This document shows, piece by piece, positions 15,096-51,909 of a stretch of DNA of 64,000 nt. The translations under genes and the position numbers were made by a program. The notes beneath the pieces are model-generated. The model saw only the letters and a program-made list of their open reading frames with translations, did not search any database and was not told the origin of the DNA. The first letter of the stretch is position 1; each line of letters opens with the position of its first letter. Source of the DNA: Methanosphaera sp. ISO3-F5 (GTDB lineage Archaea > Methanobacteriota > Methanobacteria > Methanobacteriales > Methanobacteriaceae). The stretch is from contig NZ_CP118754.2 of NCBI RefSeq assembly GCF_034480035.2, positions 70,271 to 134,270 on the forward strand, read 5' to 3'.

Positions 15096-16484
15096 ATGTA
15101 TAGTTTTATAATTTGTTTTTTTGTACTTGTAGCCTCCTACTTTATTTATGGAAAATTAATTGCAAAAATAGCAGGAGTAGATGAAAACAGAGAAACACCG
15201 GCATTTAGACTAGAAGATGGTGTGGATTACATGCCAATGTCTAAAATAAAGAATTTCTTAATACACTTCTTAAATATTGCAGGTTTAGGACCAATTTTTG
15301 GAGCAATACAAGGTGCACTTTTTGGTCCGGTAGCTTTTTTATGGATTGTACTGGGAACAATATTTATTGGAGGAGTTCATGACTTCTTCTCAGGATTTAT
15401 GTCCCTGAGAAACAATGGATATACTATGCCAAACATCATATCAAAATACTTGGGACATAATATCCAGAAAGTTATGACAGTACTTATTGTAATAACAGGT
15501 GTTCTGGTAGCTGCTACATTTGCAAAAGGAGCAGCAGACCTTTTAAGTAACTTAACAAATGTTTCAATAATTATATGGATTACAATAATATTTGTATACT
15601 TCCTAATAGCAACCGTATTTCCGATTGATAAGATCATGGGAAGGGCATATCCAATTTTTGGAGCTTTGCTTATAATTATGGTAGTGTTAATGACTGGTGC
15701 ATTATTATTAAATCCTGCATATAGTATTCCTGAATTTACAACAAGTGGATTATATCTGACAGATAAAAGTATTTTCCCATACCTGTTTGTTACAATTGCA
15801 TGTGGAGCAATTAGTGGATTTCATGCCTCACAGTCACCTATTGTAGCAAGATGTATGGAAAATGAGAAGGATGCAAGACCAGTATTTTATGGTGCAATGG
15901 TCCTGGAAGGACTTGTTGCTCTTTGTTGGGCAGCTATTGCTATGGCATTCTTTAATGGTCAGCCACAGCTTGCAGTAATATATGGTGCAACACCATCAGT
16001 AGCGGTTAATGAAATGGCCATGGCACTTGTTGGGCCTATAGGTTTAATATTAACAATTATTGGAGTTGTTGTCTGTCCTATTACAACGGGAGATACTTCC
16101 CTTAGAAGTTCAAGAATAACTATTGCTGATGAGCTAAATCTTAATCAGGAAAAATTATCATCCAGACTTAAATTAGCAATTCCATTGTTTATAGTAGCTT
16201 ATGGATTAACATATGTTGATTTTAGTTTAATATGGAGATACTTTGCATGGTTCCAGTTAATAGTAGCAACAATTGTACTGTTTGCAGCAACTGCGTATTT
16301 GATTAAGAAAGAAAAACCGTACATCCTCACACTGCTTCCGGCAGTTGTATGTACTTTAATTGCATTTGCTTATATTCTTCAAGCTCCTGAAGGTTTAAGT
16401 TTGCCTTCAATGACTGCGAATATTATTTCAGTTATTGCAACAGTAATTACAACAGTATTATTTATTAAAAAATACAAGTACTGA
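15096..16484 (+). CDS. cstA: CstA-family carbon starvation / peptide transporter
   Basis: A 462-residue protein with about 12 membrane helices and CstA signatures: PAFRLEDGVDYMPMSK near residue 33, GPIFGAIQGALFGPVAFLWI near 65, and GGVHDFFSGFMSLRNNG. Bacterial CstA and its paralogue BtsT import peptides or pyruvate; this is the short archaeal/clostridial form that lacks the long C-terminal extension. AAGGTAA lies just before the ATG. It stands alone, with no two-component system nearby. In a methanogen the substrate is uncertain. Confidence 0.9.
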   Translation: MYSFIICFFVLVASYFIYGKLIAKIAGVDENRETPAFRLEDGVDYMPMSKIKNFLIHFLNIAGLGPIFGAIQGALFGPVAFLWIVLGTIFIGGVHDFFSGFMSLRNNGYTMPNIISKYLGHNIQKVMTVLIVITGVLVAATFAKGAADLLSNLTNVSIIIWITIIFVYFLIATVFPIDKIMGRAYPIFGALLIIMVVLMTGALLLNPAYSIPEFTTSGLYLTDKSIFPYLFVTIACGAISGFHASQSPIVARCMENEKDARPVFYGAMVLEGLVALCWAAIAMAFFNGQPQLAVIYGATPSVAVNEMAMALVGPIGLILTIIGVVVCPITTGDTSLRSSRITIADELNLNQEKLSSRLKLAIPLFIVAYGLTYVDFSLIWRYFAWFQLIVATIVLFAATAYLIKKEKPYILTLLPAVVCTLIAFAYILQAPEGLSLPSMTANIISVIATVITTVLFIKKYKY

Positions 16485-17377
16485 AAATTATTATATGAAT
16501 GGATGAAATGATGGAAAAAGTTTTTTATCTGATTAAAAAAAGAAGCATTTTGTATTCATAAAAATATTTTCTATCATGATCCTATTACAATATTATGGAC
16601 AGATATGTAATATACTGAATATTAAATAACTTATTTTTCCCCCATTTTTCTCCTTCTTTTAAAATCATGAAATTAGTATTTTAAGTAAATTAAGATTATT
16701 TTACTCGGGATTTATTTTATTATCTGATAAGAATACCTCTGAACTAATATTATTATCTATAATAATAAATGATGATTAATGATAAAAGGTTTCAAAAAAG
16801 AAGATTCTAATATTAAAAATTAAAGATTATGCTACTTGATACTCAATAAATCATACTAAATAACCTCGTTTTGATGATTATAAAGTATTTGTGCTCTACT
16901 CGCAGAGGTCTTCAGGAGATGGTATAATAAACATCATGTATTAGGGGTTTAGATGGGGAATGAAAACTACCATCATCACACGTCATCATTAATAAATTCA
17001 ATTAAATCGTGAAATAATGGTTATGTAAAAGTTAATGTAGGACTCCCTCTTAAGATTCAATAGATTATCATTTATTAGATAATATTGTTTTATCAATTTA
17101 ATTGATTAAGATAAATATATATACTTGTTAATTAGATAATATTAATCATACTATTAATATTCATTACGTGGTAGATATTATAGTATAGGCTAAATGTTAA
17201 TGTTAGAATCTTTTATTAGATTCACTATAACAGTAACATTTTTATTAAATTCTTATTTTAACAATTTTTATTTAAGCTCGTTTACTCTTTTTTAGTTAAA
17301 TTTTAATATCATATTTTACAAAAAAAATTCAATGTAGGTATAGATGAAGATCCTCCCAGTTTATGATATAATCCTAG
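16485..17377. other. Long intergenic region, no gene seen
   Basis: About 890 bp of AT-rich DNA between cstA and a small ORF. I found no reading frame with a good ribosome binding site and no RNA gene. Several A/T runs could form weak hairpins. Confidence 0.4.
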
Positions 17378-17388
17378 CCAGATATAAT
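17378..17388 (+). promoter_or_regulatory. TATA-like box of the 30-residue ORF
   Basis: AGATATAATCT lies about 27 bp before the ribosome binding site of the small gene at 17429, so a transcript starting near 17408 would carry a short leader. Archaeal TATA boxes usually sit 25-27 bp before the start of transcription. Confidence 0.4.
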
Positions 17389-17428
17389 CTTAAACACAAG
17401 TACTAACTTCAATGGAGGTGAAATTATA

Positions 17429-17521
17429 ATGTCTACCACGTATCAAGATTTAACATGTATACTACTGTTGCTTGAAATATTAAGGGAAGTAATTCTCTTA
17501 TACAAAATACTAATAGAGTAA
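17429..17521 (+). CDS. Small hydrophobic peptide, 30 residues
   Basis: The frame reads MSTTYQDLTCILLLLEILRE followed by VILLYKILIE and a stop. A strong GGAGGTG sits 8 bases before the ATG, a TATA-like box lies 40-50 bp upstream, and a stable hairpin with a T-run follows 31 bp after the stop. These signals make a complete small transcription unit. The peptide would form one amphipathic or membrane-inserted helix, with leucines and isoleucines on one side and Glu/Arg/Lys on the other. I recognise no family. It could be a small membrane regulator or a toxin-like peptide. Confidence 0.55.
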   Translation: MSTTYQDLTCILLLLEILREVILLYKILIE

Positions 17522-17551
17522 AACCTCCCAAATAGAATTACAGACAATACA

Positions 17552-17608
17552 AATAATAAAGGATACGGATATACCTACACTTCACATAATATCCTTATTA
17601 TTTTTTTT
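17552..17608 (+). terminator. Intrinsic terminator after the small ORF
   Basis: The arms AATAATAAAGGATA (17552-17565) and TATCCTTATTATT (17590-17602) pair almost perfectly with one bulge. They are followed at once by a run of Ts ending at 17608. Confidence 0.65.
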
Positions 17609-17975
17609 AAGAGTATATACCTGTAAAAGAAAAACTCTAAAATATTACACCGAAATAATAATTAATTATACAATATTTTCACAAAAAAGATAATTAACCC
17701 AAACCCGATAGAATTACTTAATTCTTTTTCTACAAAATTATAAATACTATTAAAGATAAAAATTTGATAAAATATTAAAAGGTTATAATAATTGATTTAT
17801 ACTATTTTATCGAAATTTTTCAATATTTATAGAAATAATTAGATGTAACTACTTTTATTAACAATAATTTATTCATGAATTAAAACACAACACCATACCA
17901 TATTATAACCTAATACAAATATGTTAAATTAATCTGAGAAAAAAAAATAATACTAATTTAAAGGATTGGATTATT
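17609..17975. other. Intergenic leader of the first adhesin gene
   Basis: AT-rich, no reading frame. It presumably holds the promoter of the adhesin starting at 17976, which is preceded by AAAGGATTGG. Confidence 0.4.
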
Positions 17976-20900
17976 ATGATCAATAAAAAATCTTTTTTTA
18001 TTCTCATAGTTTTAGTAATGCTTTTAAATCTAGCAGTTATTTGTGCAAACAATACAGAGAATACTATTTCTAAAGAAAAAATACAGGACAACGCCCCACA
18101 AATATCTGAAAATAATTATGAAAAAGATTACACTAAAACTATTAGCAAAGAAACTAAGCTTAATAAAGAAAATAAAACCTACACAAATACCGAAATTAAT
18201 AAACGCGAACAAAACACTCTAAAAACAGCACCAGGTGAAGAAAATGTTAACAGCTACACAGGACTAGTAACCGCAGCAAACAATGCAAAAACATCCACAC
18301 AACAAAACTATACAATAAACCTACAAAGTGGAAACTATGATGCAACAGAGGTTATCAGATGGAATTCAACAGGAAACTGTAAAACTCTTATCATAAATGG
18401 GAATAACAACACCCTAAATGGTAAAGGTACAATCCAATTTATGCAGATAAACAGTGGAACAACAGTAATACTAAACAATCTCCACTTAAACAATTACTAT
18501 AAAAACGGAAACGGTGGAGTAATAGTCAATCAAGGTACATTAATTATAAGAAATTCATCATTAACCAATTCAATAGCAACAATGGGTGGAGGAGCAATAT
18601 ACAACTACCAAAACTCCATAGTATACATTACAAACACAAACTTCACAAACAACAAAGCAAACGAAGGCGGAGCAATATATGGGAGACTACAAAGTAACAT
18701 AATAGTACAAAACAGTAACTTCACATACAACACAGCAACGGATGGTGGAGCAATACAAGCAAACAATAATACCAACGTAAATATTGCTAACAGTAGCTTC
18801 ACAAATAACACGGCAACGTATGGTGGAGCAATACAAGCAAACAATAGTACCATCCTAAATATTGCTAACAGTAGCTTCACAAATAACACAGCAACGGATG
18901 GTGGAGCAATAGGTGGATATAGAGGTACTAGTATAAATGTTACAAACAGTACTCTTTTAGATAACAGTGCACGATATGGGGGAGGAGTATTCGGACAATT
19001 AAATATAAACTTAACAGTAACCAGTAGTAATTTTACAAACAATAATGTACCATTTACTGGGGGGGCAATACACATACAAACTGAGTCACATCTTAATGGT
19101 ATAAATAATAATTTCAAAAATAACACAGCAGGATATGGTGGAGCATTATATGTATATGACCGTACCAATATGACAGTTAGAGATACTAATTTTACTGATA
19201 ACACTGCAGGATATGGTGCTGCAGTATATGTAAGTGATAATAGTCATTACATAAATATTACCAATACTAATTTCATAAATAACAATGCAACTTATGGTGG
19301 AGGTGCAGTATACAACCGATATGGATACGTAACATTAATAAAATCCAACTTAACAAGCAATACTCCTCCAACATGGGAAATTACAAATAACAGTCAAGTA
19401 TATAATATTAAATTATTAAATGCTGATGGATATGTTCCTGATAATGGTATTGTAACAGTATATATCAATAATAAATTTAAGGGTAATTATATTTTAACAA
19501 ATGGTATGATTGAAAATATTGTAATCCCAACAGGAGGAACTATAAAACTGGTCGTTAATGGATCAAATATGGAAGAATATTGTGAAAACACATACACCTT
19601 TAGATTAAATATAACAATGAATATAACAATGAATATAACAAACACAACCGTAAATCAGGGAGATCGAGCTATAATATTCATAAAATTCAATGACACAGTA
19701 AATTATGGAAGTATACAGATAAGCAATCAAACCAACATTTTAAAAAATATTAATATCCTTGAAGAAACTGATTTCATAGTAGCTGATATAGATACTACAT
19801 ACTTACCATATTCAGACAATATACTTAACATAACATATCTGATAGATAATATTAATATTACCACCAGTAGAGCAAATATAAAGATAAGAATTCCAACAAT
19901 AATCACTACAATAATAGAGAATCAAACAACATTAAATACTTCATTAAGAGCATATGTTAATGCAGTTGAAACAGAAACAACAGTAACAGGACTAATATCA
20001 ATACATAACGCTGATGGAAAAATAATAGGATCAGGATATCTTGAAAATGGAATATCAATAATTAACATAAAATCCATACCAAAAGGTACACAAGAAATTA
20101 CTATAAAATATAATGGTGATGATTATTGCCAAGAAAACAGGACCACATTAACTCTAAACATTAAAAATCAGGCAATGACCAATATAACTATACTTAACAA
20201 CACAGAAGGAAATATCAGTATAAAAGTGAATATAACAACAGATGACCAAAAAGCATACGAAAACAAAGATGTTGAAATAATACTGCCTAATGGTACAAGT
20301 ATCACAACAACAACAGATACAAATGGAATAATTCAAATAACTGATACAACAACCACTCAGGATACCAGCATTACAATAAAAGTTGCTGATACAAGTGAGG
20401 TTAAAGGAATCAATACTACAATAGAATTCCAAGTTGTTCCAGACTATCAAAAAATTATTGATGGAATGAATGATACAATAAAGCAACAAAACACCACAAT
20501 CAATAAACTAAACAACACAATAAACGAATTAGAAAAACAGATAGAAAATGCAAACCAGAAAATAACAGAACAAAACAAAACCATCAACGAACTTAACAAA
20601 AAACTTGATGATGCCAACAGAAACATTAACAAACTCAACAAAGAATTAGAAGATGCAACAAAGAAAATAAACAACCTAACAAACACAATAAATGACTTAA
20701 ACAATAAAAACAAACAACTAGAAGAAATCATCAAAGAACTAAACAAAACAACACCAAAACTTAACACCACAATCACAATAAAACCTGTGAAAGCCACAAT
20801 AGGCGAAATCACAACCATCACAGCAAACATAAAAGATACAAACAACAAAGCAGTAACAGGCGGAAGAGTAATCTTCAAAGTAAACGGTAAAACACTAAAA

Positions 20901-40069: not shown

Positions 40070-40504
40070 TTGGGGAAAGGGCTAGAGTTGACTAAGAAAA
40101 CACAGAAACATAAAATCACCACCAGGGATGGAAGATTATGTGTTCAATACTACATACTGCTGCAAAGATTAACATATAAGAAGAAACTTAAAAACAACAG
40201 CATTAAAGAGTACGTGTCCTATCATATTAAGTTTCCAAGAACATTATATGAGTTAATAGGACAGGATACTGTATACCTGGAAAAGGTAGAAGATAAACTA
40301 GTCATGCACACAAACTCTCATGAAAGTTATAAGAAAATACGCATACAAGAAACAAGAAAAAATGATACTGCCGGATATCAGTTAACCATCCCTCAGAAAC
40401 TATTAAAAATCAAAAACTACAAACGTGGCAACACGTACATACTATGCGAAACAATAGCAGCAGACAACAAAAAAGGTTACACTCTCACCTTAGAATTAAT
40501 ATGA
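40070..40504 (+). CDS. Tandem AbrB-like DNA-binding protein (putative)
   Basis: Up to 144 residues. Two segments look like swapped-hairpin AbrB/MazE domains: YHIKFPRTLYELIGQDTVYL near residue 53 and YQLTIPQKLLKIKNYKRGNT near residue 105. The only in-frame starts are TTG codons at 40070 and 40088. The second has GGGCTAGAG-like purines in front and may be the real one. It is divergent from priL and has no toxin gene next to it. A similar two-domain protein occurs at 53541 beside a PIN gene. Function unproven. Confidence 0.6.
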   Translation: MGKGLELTKKTQKHKITTRDGRLCVQYYILLQRLTYKKKLKNNSIKEYVSYHIKFPRTLYELIGQDTVYLEKVEDKLVMHTNSHESYKKIRIQETRKNDTAGYQLTIPQKLLKIKNYKRGNTYILCETIAADNKKGYTLTLELI

Positions 40505-41120: not shown

Positions 41121-42062
41121 TTATTTCATTTCTTTCTCCCAGTACCGGATAGTGTTCAAGTTAATATCATCAGCTGTTTTTTCAATTAATTCTATCTCAT
41201 CACCGGTTAACTCTATTTGACTTGCTTTTAAAGCATCAGTTACATGATGTATCTTGGTTGCTCCCACAATTGGTAATGTTCCCTTAGCTATTGCCCATGC
41301 AACTGGAATCTGTGCAATGTTAACATCATGATTAACTGCAACATCACCTAATACACGGTTTAGTTCTCCTATTTTATCAAGACTGTCACCATATGCTGCT
41401 GCCCTGTCTGAACCTTCAGGGAATGGATGTTTAGTATCATACTTACCAGATAATGCTCCCTGTTCAAGTACCATGTATGAAAAGAATGTTATATCATTTT
41501 CTTTACAGTAGTCCAGTATTCCTGAAGTTTCTGATGATCTGTTTAGTAGACTGTAATGGTTCTGAACTGCTCCTAACTTTAACCCATTATCCTGTAGGAT
41601 TTCATTAGCTTCTTTAATTTCTTCCAGGTTATGATTTGAAACTCCGAGCATTCCTATAGCATATTCCTGTGCTGTTAATGCTAGTTTTTCTGTCCATTTT
41701 GGTGCATCAGCTGTGTTATGTATCCAGAAAATGTCTATGTGGTCCGTGTTTAAGAGGTTCATACTATTTTCTAGCATTGCTGTTACTGGGTTTTCTGAAT
41801 TATTGTCTGCACATTGTGGTGTGAATTTTGTTGAGATGATATAGTCTTCTCTTGGTGTTGTTTTAAGAAATTCTCCTAAGACTTTTTCTGAAGTTCCCAT
41901 ACCATATGCGTATGCTGTGTCCCATAAGTTTAATCCTATTTTGATTGATTCATCATATATTGGTTTTAGGTCTTCTGTGTTTAATTCGTTTCCGAATGTC
42001 TTATCGTTTCCCCAAGCCCATGCACCTAGAGCTATTTTTGGTAATTTTTTATCTGTTTTCAT
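41121..42062 (-). CDS. Aldo/keto reductase
   Basis: 313 residues forming a TIM barrel. The catalytic tetrad is present: D48 and Y53 in WDTAYAYGMG, K79 in ISTKFTP and H115 in FWIHNT. GVSNHNLEEI and LPIVGATKIHHVTDALKA fit the NADP-binding end. Such enzymes reduce aldehydes and ketones with NADPH. The substrate is unknown. It converges with the HxlR regulator; a GC-rich inverted pair (TGTGGGG / CCCCACA) between the two genes could terminate both transcripts. Confidence 0.9.
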   Translation of the reverse strand: MKTDKKLPKIALGAWAWGNDKTFGNELNTEDLKPIYDESIKIGLNLWDTAYAYGMGTSEKVLGEFLKTTPREDYIISTKFTPQCADNNSENPVTAMLENSMNLLNTDHIDIFWIHNTADAPKWTEKLALTAQEYAIGMLGVSNHNLEEIKEANEILQDNGLKLGAVQNHYSLLNRSSETSGILDYCKENDITFFSYMVLEQGALSGKYDTKHPFPEGSDRAAAYGDSLDKIGELNRVLGDVAVNHDVNIAQIPVAWAIAKGTLPIVGATKIHHVTDALKASQIELTGDEIELIEKTADDINLNTIRYWEKEMK

Positions 42063-42192
42063 AATTATTCACTTGATATTATGATTTAAATTATTATGTA
42101 TAAAAATGTATTAGGGTCATGAATGTCACCATAAGCTCTGCTTTTATGATGTACCAGCATTATTTGGTTAAATCATGAAATCATTACCAAGT

Positions 42193-43054
42193 GTAGCACA
42201 TAGCATATTTGTGGAACAATAACATTACACGTGTAGCACGAAAAAATATTGTAGCACAATTATATAAGAGTAACTGGTAGAATCACCCGACAAAGGATAA
42301 ACAATAGATTATTCCATCAGAATAGCCCGTTTAAAAAAAATTATGAAAAAAAATAAAACAGACTAAAATTACAGAATAAAAAAAATAATGTAGCACAGAA
42401 GAAAAAAAATAGCACAAAAAATACAATAAATGTAGCACGAAAATACAAGTGTAGCACAATACATCTTCGACAACACCACATGTAACCAGAATCACATAGT
42501 ATAACACAGCATATATGAATAACTACTATAACCACACAACAACAGATCAACAATAAATATTCCATAAAAATAGCCCGTTTAAAAAAAATTATGAAAAAAA
42601 ATAAAACAGACTAAAATTACAGAATAAAAAGAATAATGTAACACAGAAGAAAAAAAGTAGCACAAAATACTATAATTGTGGCACGAAATATTGGTGTAGC
42701 ACAATAACTATTTGGACAATATACCCCCACCCACTTTTGTTGCATGAATCATTATCTTATAACACATAATATTTTTTTGGAAAAACTTGTAGAATCACTT
42801 GACAACAGATCAACCATAGTCATTCCATAAAAATAGCCTGTTTAATAAAAATTATGAAAAAATATAAAACAGACTAAAATTTCAGAATACTAAAAAAATA
42901 GTGCAGCACAGAAACATAACCGTAGCACATAACAAAATTATTTTATGTAGCACAATCAGTAATAGTAGCACAAAACCATAATAAATGTGGCACGAAATAT
43001 AGGTGTAGCACAACATATTCCATGATTGTAGCACACCACCCAAAAAGTAGCACA
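42193..43054. repeat. TGTNNNACA motif array with 250-bp tandem units
   Basis: The intergenic region holds about 20 motif copies, mostly TGTAGCACA on the plus strand. The right end is very regular, with sites starting at 42902, 42921, 42946, 42964, 42986, 43004, 43027 and 43046 (alternating about 18-19 and 22-25 bp). Superimposed are three ~250-bp tandem units, recognisable by ATAGCCCGTTTAAAAAAAAT and TAAAACAGACTAAAAT near 42326, 42571 and 42834. No gene was found. The array ends 62 bp before the ACT/metallo-beta-lactamase gene. Confidence 0.85.
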
Positions 43055-43116
43055 AAAAAACTAATAATAAGAAAAAAGAAAATAATAACCAAAAAAAATA
43101 GGAACGGGAAAGAAAC

Positions 43117-44538
43117 ATGAGATATAAAACATTAATCCTAAGATTAGAAGATCGATCAGGCCACCTATTAGAAGTTTCAAAAATAATCTCCACACACAAC
43201 GCCAACATCACACGCCTCAGCTACAACAAAGTAGTAGACCAACACACAGTATTTATAGAAGTCTACGCAGACGAAAAAGACATAACAAACCTCACCAATG
43301 AATTAAAAGAAAAAAACTACCTACTACAACATAGCAGTGAAGAAGTTGATGCACTAATCACACTACAAATCATCGACATACCAGGAACAGTAACAAACAT
43401 ACTGGAAGTTTTTGAAAAATACGATGTGAACATCTCATACGTAAATACACAGGAAAACAACACATCCTACCAGTACTGTAAAATAGGCCTTTACGCTGCA
43501 AACTCTGAACGCATACAAACAGCACTGGATGAAATATCCACATTTTGTAAAATAGTGTCAATAAATTATGATATCCAAGACACAGTTATAGACAACACAG
43601 TATTCTATCATAACTTTGCACAAGAAATGAAAAGAAAACTATCATTAACACAAGAAGAGACAAACACATTCCTAAACAATTCCAATAAAATCCTGCAAAT
43701 ACTAGAAGATAAACATGAAAATTACTTCAAAACATTCAATTACATCAGAAAATTTGCTAATTTCACAGTAGATTATAAAGATGAAAACTTTAATCCACGA
43801 ATAAGCCATAAGAACATTACAACTAATACAAGAGTATACCTGATTGAACCACAATGTGGAGGAAACACATATATCCTGGAATCAGAATCACAGTTACTCT
43901 TTATAGATTCAGGCTTTGCATGCTACAAGGATGAAATGAAAAAAATTTTCCACGAATTATTCCCATCATTTGATGAAATGAAAAAACAGCTAATATTAAC
44001 ACATGCAGATATGGATCATGCAGGCATAACCGATATATTCGATGAGATATATGTTAGTGAAAATACATTCATTAACTTCAAAAGAGAACATGAGGGAAAG
44101 AAAAACTTCAGGGAAGAAAACCCACTGCATGAACCTTACATTAAGCTTGATGAAATAATGTCCAGATATAAGCCGCCATTATTAAACAAGTTAAGGATTA
44201 TTGGAAGTAAAACTAATGATGAAGAATTTGAGGAAATAGGAGAGTTTACTTTCAATGATTTGACATTTAATATTTTTGAATCCAATGGTGGACACTTAAA
44301 AGGCGAAATAATCCTGGTTGAAAAGGACACTAAGATCGTGTTTACTGGTGATATCTTCGTAAACATCCATGGTTTTACACCTGAACAGTATGAGTTTAAT
44401 CTTTTAGCACCATATCTTATGGGTTCTGTTAATACAGATTCAGAGAAAGCATCATCTTGTAGAAAAATATTGTTAAATAAGTGTAAGAATTATTTGCTCT
44501 GTCCGGGACATGGAGAATGGGTTCAGAATACTGATTAA
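43117..44538 (+). CDS. Tandem ACT domains fused to a metallo-beta-lactamase domain
   Basis: 473 residues. Two ACT domains at about 1-75 and 80-150 (ILRLEDRSGHLLEVSKIIST; LQIIDIPGTVTNILEVFEKY) usually bind amino acids. A metallo-hydrolase domain occupies about 235-470, with THADMDHAG (H296, D298, D300, H301), GGHLKGE, FTGDIFV and CPGHGEW. The canonical HxHxDH motif has Asp in place of the second His. The fusion suggests hydrolysis or redox chemistry controlled by an amino acid; the substrate is unknown. A motif array ends just upstream. Confidence 0.8.
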   Translation: MRYKTLILRLEDRSGHLLEVSKIISTHNANITRLSYNKVVDQHTVFIEVYADEKDITNLTNELKEKNYLLQHSSEEVDALITLQIIDIPGTVTNILEVFEKYDVNISYVNTQENNTSYQYCKIGLYAANSERIQTALDEISTFCKIVSINYDIQDTVIDNTVFYHNFAQEMKRKLSLTQEETNTFLNNSNKILQILEDKHENYFKTFNYIRKFANFTVDYKDENFNPRISHKNITTNTRVYLIEPQCGGNTYILESESQLLFIDSGFACYKDEMKKIFHELFPSFDEMKKQLILTHADMDHAGITDIFDEIYVSENTFINFKREHEGKKNFREENPLHEPYIKLDEIMSRYKPPLLNKLRIIGSKTNDEEFEEIGEFTFNDLTFNIFESNGGHLKGEIILVEKDTKIVFTGDIFVNIHGFTPEQYEFNLLAPYLMGSVNTDSEKASSCRKILLNKCKNYLLCPGHGEWVQNTD

Positions 44539-44756
44539 CTAACCTCCAATATAGACTTTTTTTCTTTGATATGATTTTATGGATAAAAAGGTATTACTTC
44601 TGAAAATGAGCCATACAGGAAGTATACGACATTTACTATAGTAAATTATAATTATTTTATTTAAACCTACCCTAACAGATATTAATAATAGCACCACTAC
44701 CAAATATTCTGATATATCCATCAGTAATAGAATAAAATAACCTATTTTAATATAAA

Positions 44757-44768
44757 ACTATATATAAG
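44757..44768 (+). promoter_or_regulatory. TATA box of the histone gene
   Basis: AACTATATATAA lies about 50-60 bp before the histone start codon, giving a predicted transcription start near 44790 and a short leader with AGGAG. Strong TATA boxes are usual for histone genes. Confidence 0.5.
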
Positions 44769-44817
44769 ATATTTAATAAAATATTAATTATAAAATTATA
44801 GGAGAAAAATGATATTT

Positions 44818-45015
44818 ATGGCAGAATTACCAATCGCACCAGTAAAAAGAATCATTAAACAAGCAGGTGCAGCAAGAATTAGTGATGATGCAGCAGTAGC
44901 ATTAGCAGACGCTATGGAAGAATTTGCAGAAGAAATTGCAATAGAAGCTACTAAATATGCAAAACACGCAGGTCGTAAAACTGTTACAGCTGATGATATT
45001 AAATTAGCATTATAG
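44818..45015 (+). CDS. Archaeal histone
   Basis: 65 residues ([37 protein letters not shown] and [16 protein letters not shown]), the complete minimal histone fold of the HMfA/HMfB family, which forms dimers that wrap DNA into hypernucleosomes. The conserved family start MAELPIAP favours the ATG at 44818, although an in-frame ATG lies at 44809, closer to AGGAG. It ends directly after the last helix, lacking the few basic residues seen in some homologues. It sits between two motif arrays. Confidence 0.95.
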
Positions 45016-45151
45016 GAACGTTTTACACTACAATTTATGAGGGGTGATGTTAATATTTATTTAACATTTGAACCCTTTTTTTATTAATCACCCATACATT
45101 AGATTATTTTTCTTGTTTTAGGATTAACTTGGTTTAATTAGTAACAATATT

Positions 45152-46432
45152 ATTGTAGCACGGATGATGATTGTAGCACAATCATATACTGTAGCATAAC
45201 ATGAAAATGTGGAACAAAAAACAGTTAATCAATTGTAGCACAACAAGTAAATGTAGCCCCAATATAAAAAGATTAATTTATACCAGACACTACCACAACA
45301 TGATCAACAAAACAATCCTCACTGTAGCACAACATAAAACGTGGTACGATTTAATTCTGTGGAACAAAACTTATTACCCGGTGTGGCACAAAAAGAAATT
45401 GTAGCCGAAATTATAACTAATTAAATTATAAAACATAACATCAATATTTAATCCACATTACAATCCCCCATTGTAGCACAAGTCAAATAATGTAGCACAA
45501 AAAAATATACTATACTATCAAGATTAACAAATTATGTTCCACAAATCAGTTCTGTGCTACAATAAACCTGAGTATGTGCCACACTTTTATTACGTAGCAC
45601 AAAGAAGACACTAAAGACGTTTTTACAACAGAAAAGATGTATTAAAAAAATTACCCATGACAAGACATGAAAATAATTCAAAGTAAGATAAATTTAAAGA
45701 GGTAAGATAGAAGTAACCTATTGAAATATTAATCACAGTTATCATTATATTAACCTTAAATCATTTCAATTAAAAATAGAAAAAAAGCACCTACATTAAA
45801 CAATAAAAAAGAAGAAATTTCCAAAAAATCACTAAATTTCACCAAAATCGTAGCACAAAAATATAAAAGTGGCACAAAAAATAACAAGACCAAGAACAAA
45901 AATACTACTTCACAAACATACCAGAATTTCAACATAACCCCAAATTATAAATGTAGCACAAAATAAAAATAGGCCACAAAAAAAACAGTACCCCACAATA
46001 TTGTAGCACAGTAAAAAAATTGTTCCACAAAAATAGGATCAAGTAAAAGTAAATCTGCTGATGTTAAAACACAACACCAACTATTGTGTGCCACAAGAAA
46101 ACACAAACATATGTACCACACAATAAGAACGTAGCACAAAAATATTCAAAAACCAGGCCCACAACCATTAACTTGTGCCACACACCACAAATGTGACACA
46201 ATTATCAGAAAAGGTGTACCACATTTTAACAATGTGGCCAAAAAAATGCTATTTTTAGTAGCCCAAAGCCTATTTGTGACACAAAATATGCCCCTTTTTT
46301 GTAGCCAAAACACCACACAGGCTACAAAATCTGGTTTACAAATGCCTCATGTGACACAATTTTTGTAGCCAAAATATAACGTGTGCTACACGTTTTTTGT
46401 AGCACATTTCATCATCCGGCTACAATTTTTCA
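45152..46432. repeat. TGTNNNACA motif array (large left array)
   Basis: This is the longest gene-free stretch and holds more than 30 motif copies. TGTAGCACA on the plus strand dominates. Variants include TGTGGAACA, TGTGGCACA, TGTACCACA, TGTGACACA and complete reversals such as TGTGCTACA and TGTGCCACA. Towards 46100-46430 the motif degenerates to TGTAGCC and mixed orientation. Apparent reading frames here are translations of the repeats. The array ends about 380 bp before the RHH/coiled-coil gene. Confidence 0.85.
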
Positions 46433-46812
46433 GTAAATAAAAAACAAAAAACAATACATCATCAGTTGTTCTTGGTTTTATGACATTACAACTGTTTTCT
46501 GTTAACATGTGAACTTCCTGTTTTTCTATCGTTAAAACAAGCTCTTATATTATATTATATATAATAATATATTTTATTATATTATATATTATATATCTCA
46601 AATCCATTTTACGAAAGTATAGGGGGAACTCATGTGGCCTCGTGCCACAATTGTACCACGGTACCACACAGTAATAGGGGGTACCTCTTCAAAATGGAGT
46701 TACACTTGAAATTGTTTAAAATGGTTAATTTTCAATTGTAAAAAAATAATCCTTGATAAAATAAAGTAATTAATGTTTGGGAGGTTATGATATTGTTAGG
46801 TAATGTTGGAGT
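46433..46812. other. Intergenic region with A/T-only tract
   Basis: Contains a stretch of nearly pure alternating A/T at about 46541-46598 that should melt or bend easily. GTGCCACAATTGTACCACGGTACCACAC around 46643-46670 is a compact cluster of the array motif. No gene was found. Confidence 0.5.
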
Positions 46813-47391
46813 TTATAATCTGTTTAACATATAATTAAGATCTTCTTCTATAATTGTTCTTTCAGTTCCTTCAATGGTAAATGTTTTTCCAAGTATACAT
46901 TCCTGTTTAATGAATTTAGCAAGATCTTCTTTAAAGTATTGGACATTCTTATATTTAGCTTCCCTAGACTTGTTACTAAGAACAGTGTCTACATTTGCCT
47001 CTAGTCTAAGATATTTTTTTCTGAGCAAGAACATCACAGCATCCTGGAACACTTTTCTTATTTCTGGATTGTTATTAATATTTTCTTCCCGTGCTGCTTT
47101 TCTTTCTAATATTTTTCTTTTACTTTCTATTTCTGCTTCTAATTCAGCAATTAATGCTCTTTCTTTTTTTATCATGTCTTCATATTGAGCTACGGTTGTT
47201 TCTCTTGACTGAATTATTACTTCTAATTGTCTAATTTCTACAGCTGTTGAAGATTCATTCGCTTGTTCTTCTTTATCCAGTTTTTCTTCTACAGCATCTC
47301 TTACAAAATCACTTACTTTGTCTGTTTTTAATTGAACTCTTTCATATAATTCTTCATCGACTCTTGCTCTTAATTGTCTGTTTTTTACCAT
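46813..47391 (-). CDS. RHH-type DNA-binding protein with coiled coil
   Basis: 192 residues. The first ~40 look like a ribbon-helix-helix domain: strand NRQLRARVDEELYERVQLK, then TDKVSDFVRDAVEEKLDKEE as the second helix. A coiled coil follows at about 50-105 (IRQLEVIIQSRETTVAQYED). A mixed C-terminal domain ends with TIEEDLNYML-like sequence (TIIEEDLNYMLNRL). I recognise no named family. Three 11-bp repeat units like those of the array at 47855-48437 lie at 47434-47466, about 45 bp upstream, suggesting binding or autoregulation. AGGTTGG precedes the ATG. Confidence 0.72.
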   Translation of the reverse strand: MVKNRQLRARVDEELYERVQLKTDKVSDFVRDAVEEKLDKEEQANESSTAVEIRQLEVIIQSRETTVAQYEDMIKKERALIAELEAEIESKRKILERKAAREENINNNPEIRKVFQDAVMFLLRKKYLRLEANVDTVLSNKSREAKYKNVQYFKEDLAKFIKQECILGKTFTIEGTERTIIEEDLNYMLNRL

Positions 47392-47433
47392 TTTTATTCC
47401 AACCTAACATATTTTTCATGTTAGATCATTGTT

Positions 47434-47466
47434 TTCATACTTCAATCATACCTGCATATTACCTTG
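47434..47466. promoter_or_regulatory. Three 11-bp iterons upstream of the RHH/coiled-coil gene
   Basis: Three consecutive 11-bp units start at 47434, 47445 and 47456 (TTCATACTTCA, ATCATACCTGC, ATATTACCTTG). They match the consensus and phase of the large array 400 bp away. Their place in front of a minus-strand RHH gene fits an operator. Confidence 0.6.
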
Positions 47467-47561
47467 AAAAAATATTTATATTCATGAGGTAATAAACTAT
47501 ATTCATAGGTCTTAATGAATAGGGTTGTTGAATTTATTTTCAATGACCTAATTTTATTCAT

Positions 47562-47708
47562 TTATATCGTCGCTTGTTTTTTAATATTTTTATTATGTTC
47601 TTCTATTAATTTTGATATAACAGTATTATAACTGTCTTCCATTGTTCCTAGCTTTTTTAATGCGATTTTTGTTTCTTCGGAAACTCTTATAGTTGTACTT
47701 TTACTCAT
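47562..47708 (-). CDS. Small ribbon-helix-helix protein, 48 residues
   Basis: The frame encodes MSKSTTIRVSEETKIALKKL, then GTMEDSYNTVISKLIEEHNK and NIKKQATI. STTIRVSEETKIALKKLG is a textbook RHH (Arc/CopG-type) strand and first helix; SYNTVISKLIEEHNK is the second helix. GAGGGG lies 8 bases before the ATG. Such small dimeric proteins act as antitoxins, autorepressors or centromere binders. No toxin gene is adjacent. It lies between the RHH/coiled-coil gene and the 11-bp repeat array, with direct repeats TACAAGTAACAC in its promoter region. Confidence 0.85.
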   Translation of the reverse strand: MSKSTTIRVSEETKIALKKLGTMEDSYNTVISKLIEEHNKNIKKQATI

Positions 47709-47778
47709 ATATTGTCCCCTCAGTACATTGTATAGTAATACTTTTTATCGTTTTCACTATATAAATGTATACATTGAT

Positions 47779-47817
47779 TACAAGTAACACAATGTAGTAA
47801 TTATGTACAAGTAACAC
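47779..47817. promoter_or_regulatory. Direct repeats in the RHH promoter region
   Basis: TACAAGTAACAC occurs twice, about 27 bp apart, some 70-110 bp upstream of the 48-residue RHH gene. The position suits an operator; the binding protein is unknown. Confidence 0.45.
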
Positions 47818-47854
47818 TTATTATATACTACTATATTATTTTTTAGTATTTAAA

Positions 47855-48437
47855 TGTTACCACATTTCTTACCTCAATCTTACCTCTTTCTTACCTTCAT
47901 CATACCCCAATCTTACCTCAATCTTACCCCAATCTTACCTCCATCTTACCATAAAAAAATCAGAAATACACAAATTTTCACCCAAAATAACGTAACATTA
48001 TAAATAACATTACAAACAATATATTACCAAAACAAAATTTAGGTATCTTACCCAGGTAATATAGTATCTTACCTCTATCAAGATACAATCTTACCTCTAT
48101 CTTACCTTATATTACTTCATCTTACCTGTAAGTAATATAAGTTAAAAATGCTTTATACACTAAAATAAAGCTTTAGAATAAGTTTAAGAAAAATGATATA
48201 AAAATAGTATCTTACCTGTATCTTACCAGTTTCATACCTGTATCATACCTCTATGTTACTAGTATCTTACCAGTATCTTACCTGTATCTTACCACATCAT
48301 ACCTATATCATACTTCAATCTTACCTATTCTTACCTCAATCTTACCCCAATATTACCTCAATCATACCTAAATCTTACCAGTATCTTACCAGTATCTTAC
48401 CTATATCTTACCTCTATCTTACCACCATCATACCTAG
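47855..48437. repeat. Array of 11-bp direct repeats (centromere-like)
   Basis: About 36 units of consensus ATCTTACCTNN sit in direct orientation with 11-bp phase. Nine units run without a break from 47855 to 47953. About six lie around 48045-48129, with a gap and one degenerate unit. Twenty-one run from 48209 to 48437, only two of them 10 bp long. One helical turn per unit places all sites on the same face of DNA. Plasmid R1 parC, bound by the RHH protein ParR, uses 11-bp direct repeats in the same way. RHH genes lie on both sides, transcribed outward. Confidence 0.92.
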
Positions 48438-48599
48438 GTAACATAGATTGCAACTATAAGGTAAGATACAAAAATACACAATCTTACCCCTAAAAAAAAT
48501 AATCACACCCCAATATTACCTAACTTCATACCCAAAAAAAGTAATACAAATTCACAAAAAACAACAATTTAAAAAAAATAATAGGAGGATCAAAAACCG

Positions 48600-49574
48600 A
48601 TGCAAAAAAAAGTATCACTCTCACTAGATGAAGACGTCTGGACCGAATACATAGAAAAATTAGAACAAAACACAGGAGTAAAAAAAGGAAAAGGACACAT
48701 CGGACCAACAATAGAAAAATTAATCAGAGAATACTACCTAAACGAACCACAACAAAACAACCCAGAACAAGAAGAAACCATACAACAACAAAAACAACAA
48801 ATAACACAACTACAAGAAACAATACAAAAAATACAAACAGAAAACACACAACTCCAAAAAGAAACACAAAAACCAAGCATAACACCAGAAGAAAAACAAC
48901 AACTAGAAACACAGCTAAACACACTACAAACAAGATACAATACACTACAGCAACAACATAAAAATACAACACAAGAACTAGAAACACTTAAAACCAGCAA
49001 TGACAACCAACAAACAGACAATCAACAAAAAATTCAAGAACTAACACTCACAAACCAAAATCTCATCACACAAAATACACAAAATCAAGAACAAATCACA
49101 CAACTCCAACAGGAAAACCAAGAACTAAAAGAAGAAAACAAAACACTAACAATACAATACGAAGTAGAACACCGAGCAAAAGCAGAAGCAGAAATAGAAA
49201 GAGATAAACTAGATGGAGAAAAAACAGTACTAAATATGAGAATAGCAACATTGGAAGAAACTAAAGATAACTTAAATGAAACCATCAGAAGTCAGAAAGA
49301 TGATCTTAGACTAAAAACAGAAGACACAGACAAACTAAGGCGTGACTATGATAACATACGGGACGAACTAGAAACCAAACGAAAAGAATACACCAGGGTA
49401 TCTAATGAGAAAAACCATTCTGATGAAAGACAAAGACAATTACAGGAAGAAGTAAATGCATTAGAAGTCAAAGAGAACAATTATAAACAAATACTAAGAC
49501 AACTAGACAGTATGAGCTTTATGGACAGGATACTTGGAAGATATCCTGAAGACATAAAAGAACTAAAAGGTTGA
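48600..49574 (+). CDS. RHH-like N-terminus with long coiled coil
   Basis: 324 residues. Residues 1-50 look like a ribbon-helix-helix: QKKVSLSLDEDVWTEYIEKL as strand plus helix and GPTIEKLIREYYL as the second helix. Nearly all the rest is coiled coil rich in Gln, Thr and Asn (heptads such as QITQLQETIQKIQTENTQLQ), with a short globular end, MDRILGRYPEDIKELKG. I recognise no family. It starts about 160 bp after the 11-bp array, behind GGAGGATC. The layout suits a DNA-binding protein that bridges or anchors the array. Confidence 0.75.
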   Translation: MQKKVSLSLDEDVWTEYIEKLEQNTGVKKGKGHIGPTIEKLIREYYLNEPQQNNPEQEETIQQQKQQITQLQETIQKIQTENTQLQKETQKPSITPEEKQQLETQLNTLQTRYNTLQQQHKNTTQELETLKTSNDNQQTDNQQKIQELTLTNQNLITQNTQNQEQITQLQQENQELKEENKTLTIQYEVEHRAKAEAEIERDKLDGEKTVLNMRIATLEETKDNLNETIRSQKDDLRLKTEDTDKLRRDYDNIRDELETKRKEYTRVSNEKNHSDERQRQLQEEVNALEVKENNYKQILRQLDSMSFMDRILGRYPEDIKELKG

Positions 49575-49867
49575 AATTAACAATTAGTTCTTTTATTATT
49601 CCTTAAATCATTAATTCTTATTCTATTGTTTTTCATATTATAATCTATATAAATCTATTTTTTTACATCAGTTAATATAGCCCTCTTTTATTAGATTTAA
49701 TAAAATTAATAACCCTAATTGAATTATGGTAAAAAGTATTTATATTTTTATAATATTACCTTATATTACCTCTTTTAAATCATCTTACTTTTAAATATTA
49801 TAGTTTTAAAAAATTTTCTTGTCATAATCTGTTTTAAATTTCCATAAATATGGTATGGGATAATTTG

Positions 49868-50432
49868 TATTGTGCTACACTTTTTTGCTTGTAGCACATT
49901 ACTATTTTTTAACAACAGAACAATAAAATGTGCCACAATTATAAAAAAGGCTACAAAATATTTGGTGAAAACTTCTCGGTATCTTTTGTGCTACATATAT
50001 GTTGTGTGCTACATTATAATTGTCTGTTCCACATTTTTTCGTGTGTGCTACAATATCTGTAAATGTGCTACTCTTTGGTTTTGTGCTACATTTTTAATAT
50101 TTGTGCTACTTTATATTTTTGTGCTACAATTTTGGATTTGAGGCTACCTTTTTTTATTGTGCTACATTAATGATTTTTTGTTCCACATTTATATTTTGTG
50201 CTACATTTTTCATGAATGTGCCACCATTAGTTTTTGTGCTACATTTTTAGTATTTGTTCCACATATTTTTAATCGTAGCACAATATCTGTAAACGAATAA
50301 TTGTAGAACAATTATTTTTTGTGGCACACCATGGGTTTCTAAAGAATTATGAAAAATTAACTTTTGTGCTACAATATTTTTTCGTAGCCTGTTTATGTGA
50401 TAATAAAATGTAGCACAACATGCTATCGTAGC
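49868..50432. repeat. TGTNNNACA motif array, highly regular right array
   Basis: About 24 motif copies, mainly TGTGCTACA on the plus strand, opposite to the left arrays. From 49987 to 50282 sixteen consecutive positions follow each other every 18-21 bp: 49987, 50005, 50025, 50044, 50064, 50082, 50102, 50120, 50140, 50158, 50179, 50197, 50217, 50235, 50255 and 50274. TGTTCCACA replaces the main form at intervals. Spacers are AT-rich and not conserved. No palindromic CRISPR-type repeat and no cas gene is present. Confidence 0.92.
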
Positions 50433-50778
50433 ACATTATGGTTATGTTTAACTTTCAGCAAAATACATAATAACAGATAAAGTAATTATATTCAGCAATT
50501 CACAGTTACTCATTAATAATTAATCTGTAAAATAAATTCGGTTAAGATAATAAGATCTATATTTGTTAAAAAAAATGTGATAGTTGATTAAGGAAAAAAA
50601 TAAACCAAATCATACTATAATATCTTTACAATTATTGGCAATAATTACTGTGGCTAATTTACTTATACGTATGATGATGGAATTAAGGTATACTTATTGT
50701 TTATTTAATATAAATTCTTTTTATTTAAAATTAGATTTTAATATGAATAGGAGGAAAAAGGGGGTGGTGGTTAATGGT
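50433..50778. other. Intergenic region, no gene seen
   Basis: AT-rich sequence between the motif array and the end of the TelA-like gene. A possible short frame at 50584 lacks a ribosome binding site and overlaps the TelA-like gene antisense. Confidence 0.4.
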
Positions 50779-51909
50779 TTAATCTTTTGTATTTATTTTA
50801 TCTATTGCTTTTTGTCCTTCTATGGCAATATTGCTGAAAGTGTTGATGGTTTCCTGCATCTTAGGAAGTGCTTCCTGTTTGAATGTGCTGATGTCTTCGA
50901 TAGCAGCTAATGCTTCATTGAATGAGGTTTGAAGAACTTCTGGTGATATGGCTGTTTCGGTACTTAATTTCTGTATCTGACTTCCCTGATCTCTTATTAT
51001 CCGTGTTGTTGAACTGATAATGTCTTCTGTTGTTGAGTTAAGCATGTTAATCTTGTCTAGTGCAATTTTCTGGTTGTATAATGAACTTGCCACCATGATT
51101 CCTGTTCTTAGTGCGGTGACTGTAACATTCTTAGCTCGGTCAATTCCTCTGATTAGTTCCTTGTTATTTCTTCTGACAACATTTAATGAGACTATTCCCT
51201 GTTGGTTTATGACGATCATCTGTTGCATGTCCATTATTCTCTGTCTGAGTGGGAATAATATTTCTTCACTTACTATGTCAATTTTTTCCTGTTCTATTCC
51301 CTTTATTTTTGCTTCTTCTATTTGTGCTTCAATTGATGCATCCATTTGTTTTCCTAATTCTATATCTGTCATTAATTTTTTTGTCACTTCTCTTAGGTTG
51401 GATTCTTCTGATAAGAGGGTGACATTATCATTTTTTAATACTCGGTTGCTCTGGTCTAATGATTTGATAATATTGGCTATGACTGTTTCTGCTGTTTCAT
51501 ATTTTTCGAAGTATTTTTTCACTGGGTCAAAGAATTTGCTCATTATTCCATTGTTAGCCCAATCGACAGCTGATGGATCTAATTCTTTTACCTGTTTGTT
51601 TAGTTCTAATAGTTTGTCGCTAACATTTTTTGATTCGGTACCGCCGTGGCTGTAATTTTTTAGCTGAGTGTTTAGTAATGCCTGGTTTTTTTCTGTGGAT
51701 TTTTTGATTGGTTCTGATCCAAAGTTTTCTATTGATTTTATTATACTTTCTCTTTCATTAATGTCTTCTATGTCCATTTCAAATATTGCGACTGCATTAT
51801 TATCTGCTTGTGTCCTTATTTTTTCTGTTGGTAATTTGGATTTTTCTTCTTCTAATGTTTTTTCTACATCTTCTTCTATATCATCTATATCTAATGAGAA
51901 TTCTGCCAT
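50779..51909 (-). CDS. TelA-like (toxic anion resistance) family protein
   Basis: About 376 residues from the ATG at 51909, which has AGGTGAG five bases upstream; a GTG at 51918 is possible. The helical TelA core is recognisable from ALLNTQLKNYSHGGTESK-like start, LKNDNVTLLSEESNLREVTKK near 160 and SLNVVRRNNKELIRGIDRAKNVT to TALRTGIMVASSLYNQKIAL. TelA homologues contribute to tellurite, phage or antimicrobial peptide tolerance and probably to membrane or polymer stress; the mechanism is unclear. It directly follows the XpaC-like gene, the arrangement also found in Firmicutes. Confidence 0.82.
   Translation of the reverse strand: MAEFSLDIDDIEEDVEKTLEEEKSKLPTEKIRTQADNNAVAIFEMDIEDINERESIIKSIENFGSEPIKKSTEKNQALLNTQLKNYSHGGTESKNVSDKLLELNKQVKELDPSAVDWANNGIMSKFFDPVKKYFEKYETAETVIANIIKSLDQSNRVLKNDNVTLLSEESNLREVTKKLMTDIELGKQMDASIEAQIEEAKIKGIEQEKIDIVSEEILFPLRQRIMDMQQMIVINQQGIVSLNVVRRNNKELIRGIDRAKNVTVTALRTGIMVASSLYNQKIALDKINMLNSTTEDIISSTTRIIRDQGSQIQKLSTETAISPEVLQTSFNEALAAIEDISTFKQEALPKMQETINTFSNIAIEGQKAIDKINTKD

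Follow-up and report, generated by a model that had tools for sequence, protein, structure and literature searches.

Plasmid centromeres bound by ribbon-helix-helix (RHH) proteins are known from omega of pSM19035, ParG and ParR, and single-protein partition systems from Par of pSK1 and StbA of R388. To our knowledge, little has been learned about the inheritance of methanogen plasmids. Arrays of a short motif are described here from the large plasmid of Methanosphaera sp. ISO3-F5, a methane-producing archaeon of the sheep gut. The genome consists of two contigs totaling 2,680,162 bases, a 2.5-Mb chromosome (C1) and a replicon of 174,118 bases (C2), and its published description gives a chromosome and a megaplasmid (PMC11008217). 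The window, i.e., the whole stretch of 64,000 nucleotides that was analyzed, spans C2:70271-134270, and positions without a contig name refer to it. Among the papers listed by searches of the published literature, none reports these arrays, and those listed for the 9-mer itself carry titles on unrelated organisms; a search of Rfam with positions 42000-51000 gave no match, and a search of a plasmid collection gave a single one, from E. coli, at 69% over 7% of the query. We propose, with a probability near 0.45, that these arrays are centromere-like, belong to the maintenance core of the plasmid, and are occupied by a protein that the plasmid itself encodes, which would act as a dimer of dimers and is probably RHH1.

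The core lies between array A9 (45154-46137, plus strand) and array A10 (49871-50435, minus strand). It holds a block of mixed motif orientation (46138-46493), the RHH1 gene (46813-47391, minus strand), which encodes 192 aa with a presumed RHH head and a coiled coil, iterons of the 8-mer ATCTTACC (47880-48540; 24 copies on both strands within a 1-kb window), and the RHH2 gene (48600-49574, plus strand), which encodes 324 aa with a presumed RHH head, a long coiled coil and a strongly conserved C-terminal tail. As in the RHH-bound centromeres, several arrays of short repeats in both orientations surround presumed RHH genes; here, however, the repeats are 9-mers paired at 18-19 bp with neutral spacers, the module contains two array types (iterons and pairs) as well as a histone gene, and a search for PF13614 found no partner ATPase on the replicon. 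The locus shares with pSK1 Par and R388 StbA a presumed DNA-binding head joined to a coiled coil, upstream iterons and, within the PF13614 search made here, the lack of a partner ATPase, but differs in its presumed RHH rather than helix-turn-helix head, its additional paired arrays and its archaeal host. The SegAB system of Sulfolobales achieves archaeal segregation with a DNA-binding protein, SegB, as is proposed for this locus, whereas no SegA-type ATPase was detected on C2 by the same PF13614 search and the candidate binder shows no relation by any test made.

Exact copies of the forward 9-mer TGTAGCACA and its reverse form TGTGCTACA occur at 8:0 in 42150-43060 and 7:1 in 45150-46100, left of the core, at 1:1 in 46100-46420, and at 2:10 in 49860-50440, right of the core, confirming the description in an earlier sequence-only reading of forward motifs on the left, reverse motifs on the right and mixed orientation at 46.1-46.4 kb. 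The array at 34-190 (A7, minus strand), to which that reading had assigned the right-hand orientation, indeed has it (0:5). A weight matrix trained on the arrays, with the consensus TGTRGMACA, found 20 plus and no minus sites at 42192-43054 (A8, plus strand, all sites paired), 24 plus and 8 minus sites at 45154-46406 (scanned to 46460), 6 plus and 17 minus sites at 49871-50435 (20 of these 23 paired), and 1 plus and 7 minus sites at 34-190 (all 8 paired). Allowing one mismatch, the window contains 71 sites against a mean of 15.0 (standard deviation 3.65) in 100 shuffles, and the pair pattern TGTRGMAC-N11-GTRGMACA, present 16 times, was absent from 100 shuffles. The genome contains 68 exact copies of TGTAGCACA, including 53 on C2, where sites are mostly clustered in intergenic arrays, and 15 scattered singly on the chromosome. 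The orientation of the large arrays A8, A9 and A10 is maintained in G116, a metagenome-assembled comparison genome of the same species in ~200 contigs. The proposed flip at one site stood in part: it is real, is kept in G116 and is centered on a conserved core, but because the distal part of the right-hand array (50274-50435) has mostly plus sites, it is not a single point.

In the ten arrays of C2, 98 of 113 sites have a partner 17-19 bp away, while 2000 random placements yielded a mean of 10.5 paired sites and a maximum of 30. The 49 pairs include 38 of the same orientation (21 ++ and 17 --) and 11 opposed pairs (6 -+ and 5 +-), with equal spacing in every class. Polarity of the motif is carried by its central triplet alone (AGC or GCT), the remaining TGT...ACA being palindromic, and the outer edges of pairs are better kept (90/98) than the inner edges (72/98; p=0.0011). 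The better-kept outer edges and the equal spacing in all orientations identify the unit as a bipartite element of symmetric form, whose orientation is that of the central triplet. In our view, the motif is a predicted protein-binding site whose working unit is the pair, two quasi-palindromic 9-mers at a distance of 18-19 bp that make up a bipartite element of 27-28 bp suited to a dimer of dimers.

Comparison with G116 revealed which parts of the locus are under constraint. In A10, site columns are identical at 162 of 171 positions and spacers at 601 of 745 (p=1.3e-6). Identity is 81% in the left part of A9 and 80% in 45841-46137, where spacers diverge rapidly, but 97.2% in the mixed block, a difference from the rest of A9 with p=2e-16; the place of mixed orientation is thus a separately conserved element, its identity staying high while the A9 flank diverges. 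Identity is 99.7% for the RHH1 gene, 100% for 47392-47879, 96% for the iteron region (with 77 gapped columns), 97.6% for the RHH2 gene and 83% for A10. The center of the flip is therefore informative, as the mixed block, presumed RHH gene and iteron region are 96-100% identical between flanking arrays at 80-83%. The same contrast would be expected of a replication origin made up of the mixed block and an A/T-only run, with the arrays serving as iterons for initiator loading or copy-number control. A 52-bp A/T-only run, the second longest on the replicon, follows the block (46545-46596), and primase genes lie 6-9 kb away. However, no Cdc6/Orc match was found on C2, the cumulative GC skew of this replicon has its maximum at ~62 kb and its minimum at ~165 kb, with the core (115-121 kb) at neither extreme, and the core of a related locus (L077, contig C7 of genome G123) has no A/T-only run of at least 35 bp by its arrays, save one beside the histone gene. 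An origin is thus unlikely, although it merits some weight.

The skew also bears on the suggestion, made in the sequence-only reading by comparison with KOPS and Chi, that polar motifs flipping at one site can mark an origin, a terminus or a loading center. As a guide of this type, the motif would direct a translocase or a nuclease toward one site of the core. The flip at the core and its retention in G116 are what such a guide would produce, but the skew extremes lie elsewhere. Around the replicon, the polarity of the arrays does not exceed chance: among ten arrays or sites of clear polarity (two arrays of mixed sign being excluded), four sign changes were counted (P=0.40). With A7 counted as it lies in G116, sign changes fall to two (P=0.04, or 0.14 when three neighboring arrays are merged). 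Furthermore, the sites are clustered in intergenic arrays and not dispersed, opposed pairs hold the same spacing as the others, and a class of array built of the perfect palindrome TGTATATACA exists. A KOPS- or Chi-like guide was rejected on the basis of the skew and the circular order of arrays, and we consider it extremely improbable. Short polarized sequences pointing to dif have been reported from archaea, including M. stadtmanae (PMC2958812); there, a polarity flip serves as a replication landmark, and a flip is present at this locus as well, but those sequences are 4-mers spread over chromosomes, while these are clustered intergenic 9-mers whose flip lies away from the skew extremes. Polarity probably arises as arrays grow on strands whose composition is biased, rather than being a means of steering a moving enzyme. 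Duplication as the mode of growth is not evident in general, because mean flank identity within arrays (0.34-0.45) is close to that between arrays (0.40); in A8, nevertheless, longer duplications are clear (92% flank identity, 42389 versus 42637).

Related elements share this organization. The pair pattern TGTRGMAC-N10/11-GTRGMACA was found in 7 of 138 genomes of the family, all of the same genus as the window, and a looser exact pair pattern in 9 of 138, the additions being G114, of this genus, and one match in another genus. In a search extended to other organisms, the exact pair pattern matched 54 genome and 28 viral stretches. A rescan for clusters of at least three sites within 60 bp of each other identified real arrays in several Methanosphaera stretches and mostly single pairs in other organisms, where the short runs comprised four copies in L120 and L145 and three in L122 and L165. 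In L120 (7261-7323, a viral contig) and L145 (7917-7979, a Planctomycetota contig), four TGTAGCACA copies lie at exact 18-bp steps and are possibly coding repeats. Searches of viral contigs for the RHH1 and RHH2 families found no relative.

In contigs C7 of G123 (L077) and C66 of G116 (L076), the arrays are built of another motif, TGTAAATACA, and adjoin a gene for CC198 (198 aa, a presumed RHH-coiled-coil protein), a TGTACATACA array and a histone gene. The layout common to C2, L076 and L077 thus comprises an RHH2-like gene, iterons, paired arrays, an RHH-like coiled-coil gene and a histone gene. With one mismatch allowed, TGTAAATACA sites in L077 flip in a similar way, being 26 plus and 6 minus left of the CC198 gene and 2 plus and 7 minus right of it, while in L076 they are at first nearly all plus and then mixed. 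The ISO3-F5 chromosome carries a TGTAAATACA array beside a histone gene (C1:509742-514026) with 47 exact sites, 46 of them minus, and 20 copies of TGTATATACA. The same array is present in G116, where histone, AbrB-like and primase genes come after it, an order that would fit an integrated relative of the C2 core. Pairing, counted at 16-19 bp, is weaker for TGTAAATACA: 34/70 sites on C1, 22/32 and 6/9 in L077, 14/33 in L076 and 14/24 in G116 C177. When 41 loci were scanned for dense TGT-N3/4-ACA clusters, these two motif classes appeared and no third. RHH2 paralogues have iterons of their own; similar heads in C2 and G112 C1 accompany ATCTTACC and ATGTTACC, and other heads accompany other iterons, so that heads and iterons appear to vary together.

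In each of the four related loci, a histone gene adjoins the arrays, which lie downstream of it (44809-45015, plus strand, in the window; L076 9886-10086; L077 16337-16552; C1:514254-514451). Two more coiled-coil genes lie near RHH2 in the sister elements (L077 7592-8965; L076 461-1886), with TCTTTACA repeats at and before the first of these in L077. The RHH2 C-terminal tail (residues ~266-324) is almost invariant in paralogues with very different coiled coils, which suggests a common partner.

A centromere-like role is backed by the pairing of 98 of 113 sites and the better-kept outer edges of pairs, the constraint on A10, the position of A9 and A10 between convergent genes, the layout shared with L076 and L077, the apparent covariation of RHH2 heads and iterons, and the stability of the core amid diverging arrays. 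Presumed RHH genes adjoin the arrays and would encode the binders. In the proposed mechanism, site pairs would build long arrays around the maintenance core of the megaplasmid, onto which a plasmid-coded DNA-binding protein, most likely RHH1, would load cooperatively, and the resulting nucleoprotein complex would act in segregation, pairing or compaction. RHH2 would bind the neighboring ATCTTACC iterons, and the flip would mark the meeting of two array arms with the conserved core. Several observations weigh against this interpretation. Pfam identified no RHH domain in RHH1, RHH2 or CC198; relatives of RHH1 were not found in G109, G114, G120, G121 or G124, despite their TGTAGCACA pairs, nor CC198 in G000, whose chromosome has a TGTAAATACA array. 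The ParA-type ATPase search (PF13614) gave five chromosomal matches and none on C2, other ATPase families not having been searched. Small arrays also occur far from the core and on chromosomes, and A9 shows no contrast in G116 between sites (187/209) and spacers (967/1119; p=0.26). As for the fold of these proteins, the structural model of RHH2 places two helices in its head, with low confidence, and the RHH1 model was uninformative. In sequence searches of the PDB, the RHH1 family had only weak matches, of coiled-coil type, and the RHH2 head had none.

If the arrays were instead transcriptional operators, they would regulate neighboring genes, many of which encode surface proteins, and A2, A3, A4, A6 and A8 are indeed located upstream of a gene that runs in the direction of the motif. 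However, A7, A9 and A10 each lie between convergent genes, so that A9 and A10 are not promoter operators, and motif direction does not track neighboring genes, as the first G120 array and those of G116 C146 and G114 oppose both neighbors. Regulation of this kind is very unlikely to be their function.

An extension of the centromere-like reading, to which we give only a small chance, is that Methanosphaera plasmids and integrated elements share an undescribed ATPase-free maintenance system, in which one RHH-coiled-coil protein would act on iterons and another on arrays of TGT-ACA pairs, next to which a histone gene would be dedicated to the system, and in which motifs diverge between elements like incompatibility groups. 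Such a system, if real, would amount to a centromere of archaea that has a histone to itself. Through the paired-site rule, the motif variants of the sister elements and the conserved core, the binder and its specificity can be tested directly, and the same features may yield parts for stable vectors in gut methanogens.

Array A7 does require a separate account, as the sequence-only reading had held: in G116 it lies inverted with respect to its flanks, between Xer/dif-like sites. In C2 it is bounded by sites of the type TTCGTTATA-N6-TATAACGAA at C2:70024, outside the window, and C2:70481, the latter an inverted repeat at 211-234 with 9-bp arms and a 6-bp center, 29 bp from the nearest A7 site. 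Recombination-linked inversion would explain its orientation, although an assembly error in the metagenome-derived G116 is an alternative. Plasmid Xer sites such as cer and psi have accessory sequences, and at some arrays a presumed protein-binding stretch likewise lies by an inverted-repeat core; as accessory arrays, they would bind a protein that holds two recombination cores together. C2 encodes what we take from its sequence to be a tyrosine recombinase-like protein (C2:61110-62024), and similar cores lie 23-65 bp from A7 and from four of nine arrays in other genomes (G116 C146, G109, G122 and G121). Unlike the situation at cer and psi, most large arrays are without a core: none was found at the other ten array places examined on C2, including A8-A10, or at five of nine arrays elsewhere, and we consider an accessory function distinctly unlikely. 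Further repeats of this type are present at C2:54837 and 171285, L063 6851, L072 9975 and L224 10743, and several of the cores adjoin small TGTAGCACA arrays.

Arrays also appear as sites of insertion or exchange, since in G116 a gene for a 798-aa surface-protein-like product sits inside A8 (L061, about 15360-18170) and one for a 605-aa secreted-type product at the left edge of A9 (L062 650-3110). Among neighboring genes, a TelA-family gene (PF05816; 50779-51918, minus strand) borders A10, and a gene for a 48-aa protein (47562-47708, minus strand) has a weak match to the VapB antitoxin family (E 1.7e-4, below the cut-off). The primase genes encode PriS-like (PF01896; 37708-38664, minus strand) and PriL-like (PF04104; 38630-39952, minus strand) subunits, the latter a second copy in addition to one on the chromosome. 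An adjacent gene (40070-40504, plus strand), for which no Pfam family was found, appears AbrB-like by eye, and its relatives adjoin primase genes in G116 C177 and G120 C47.

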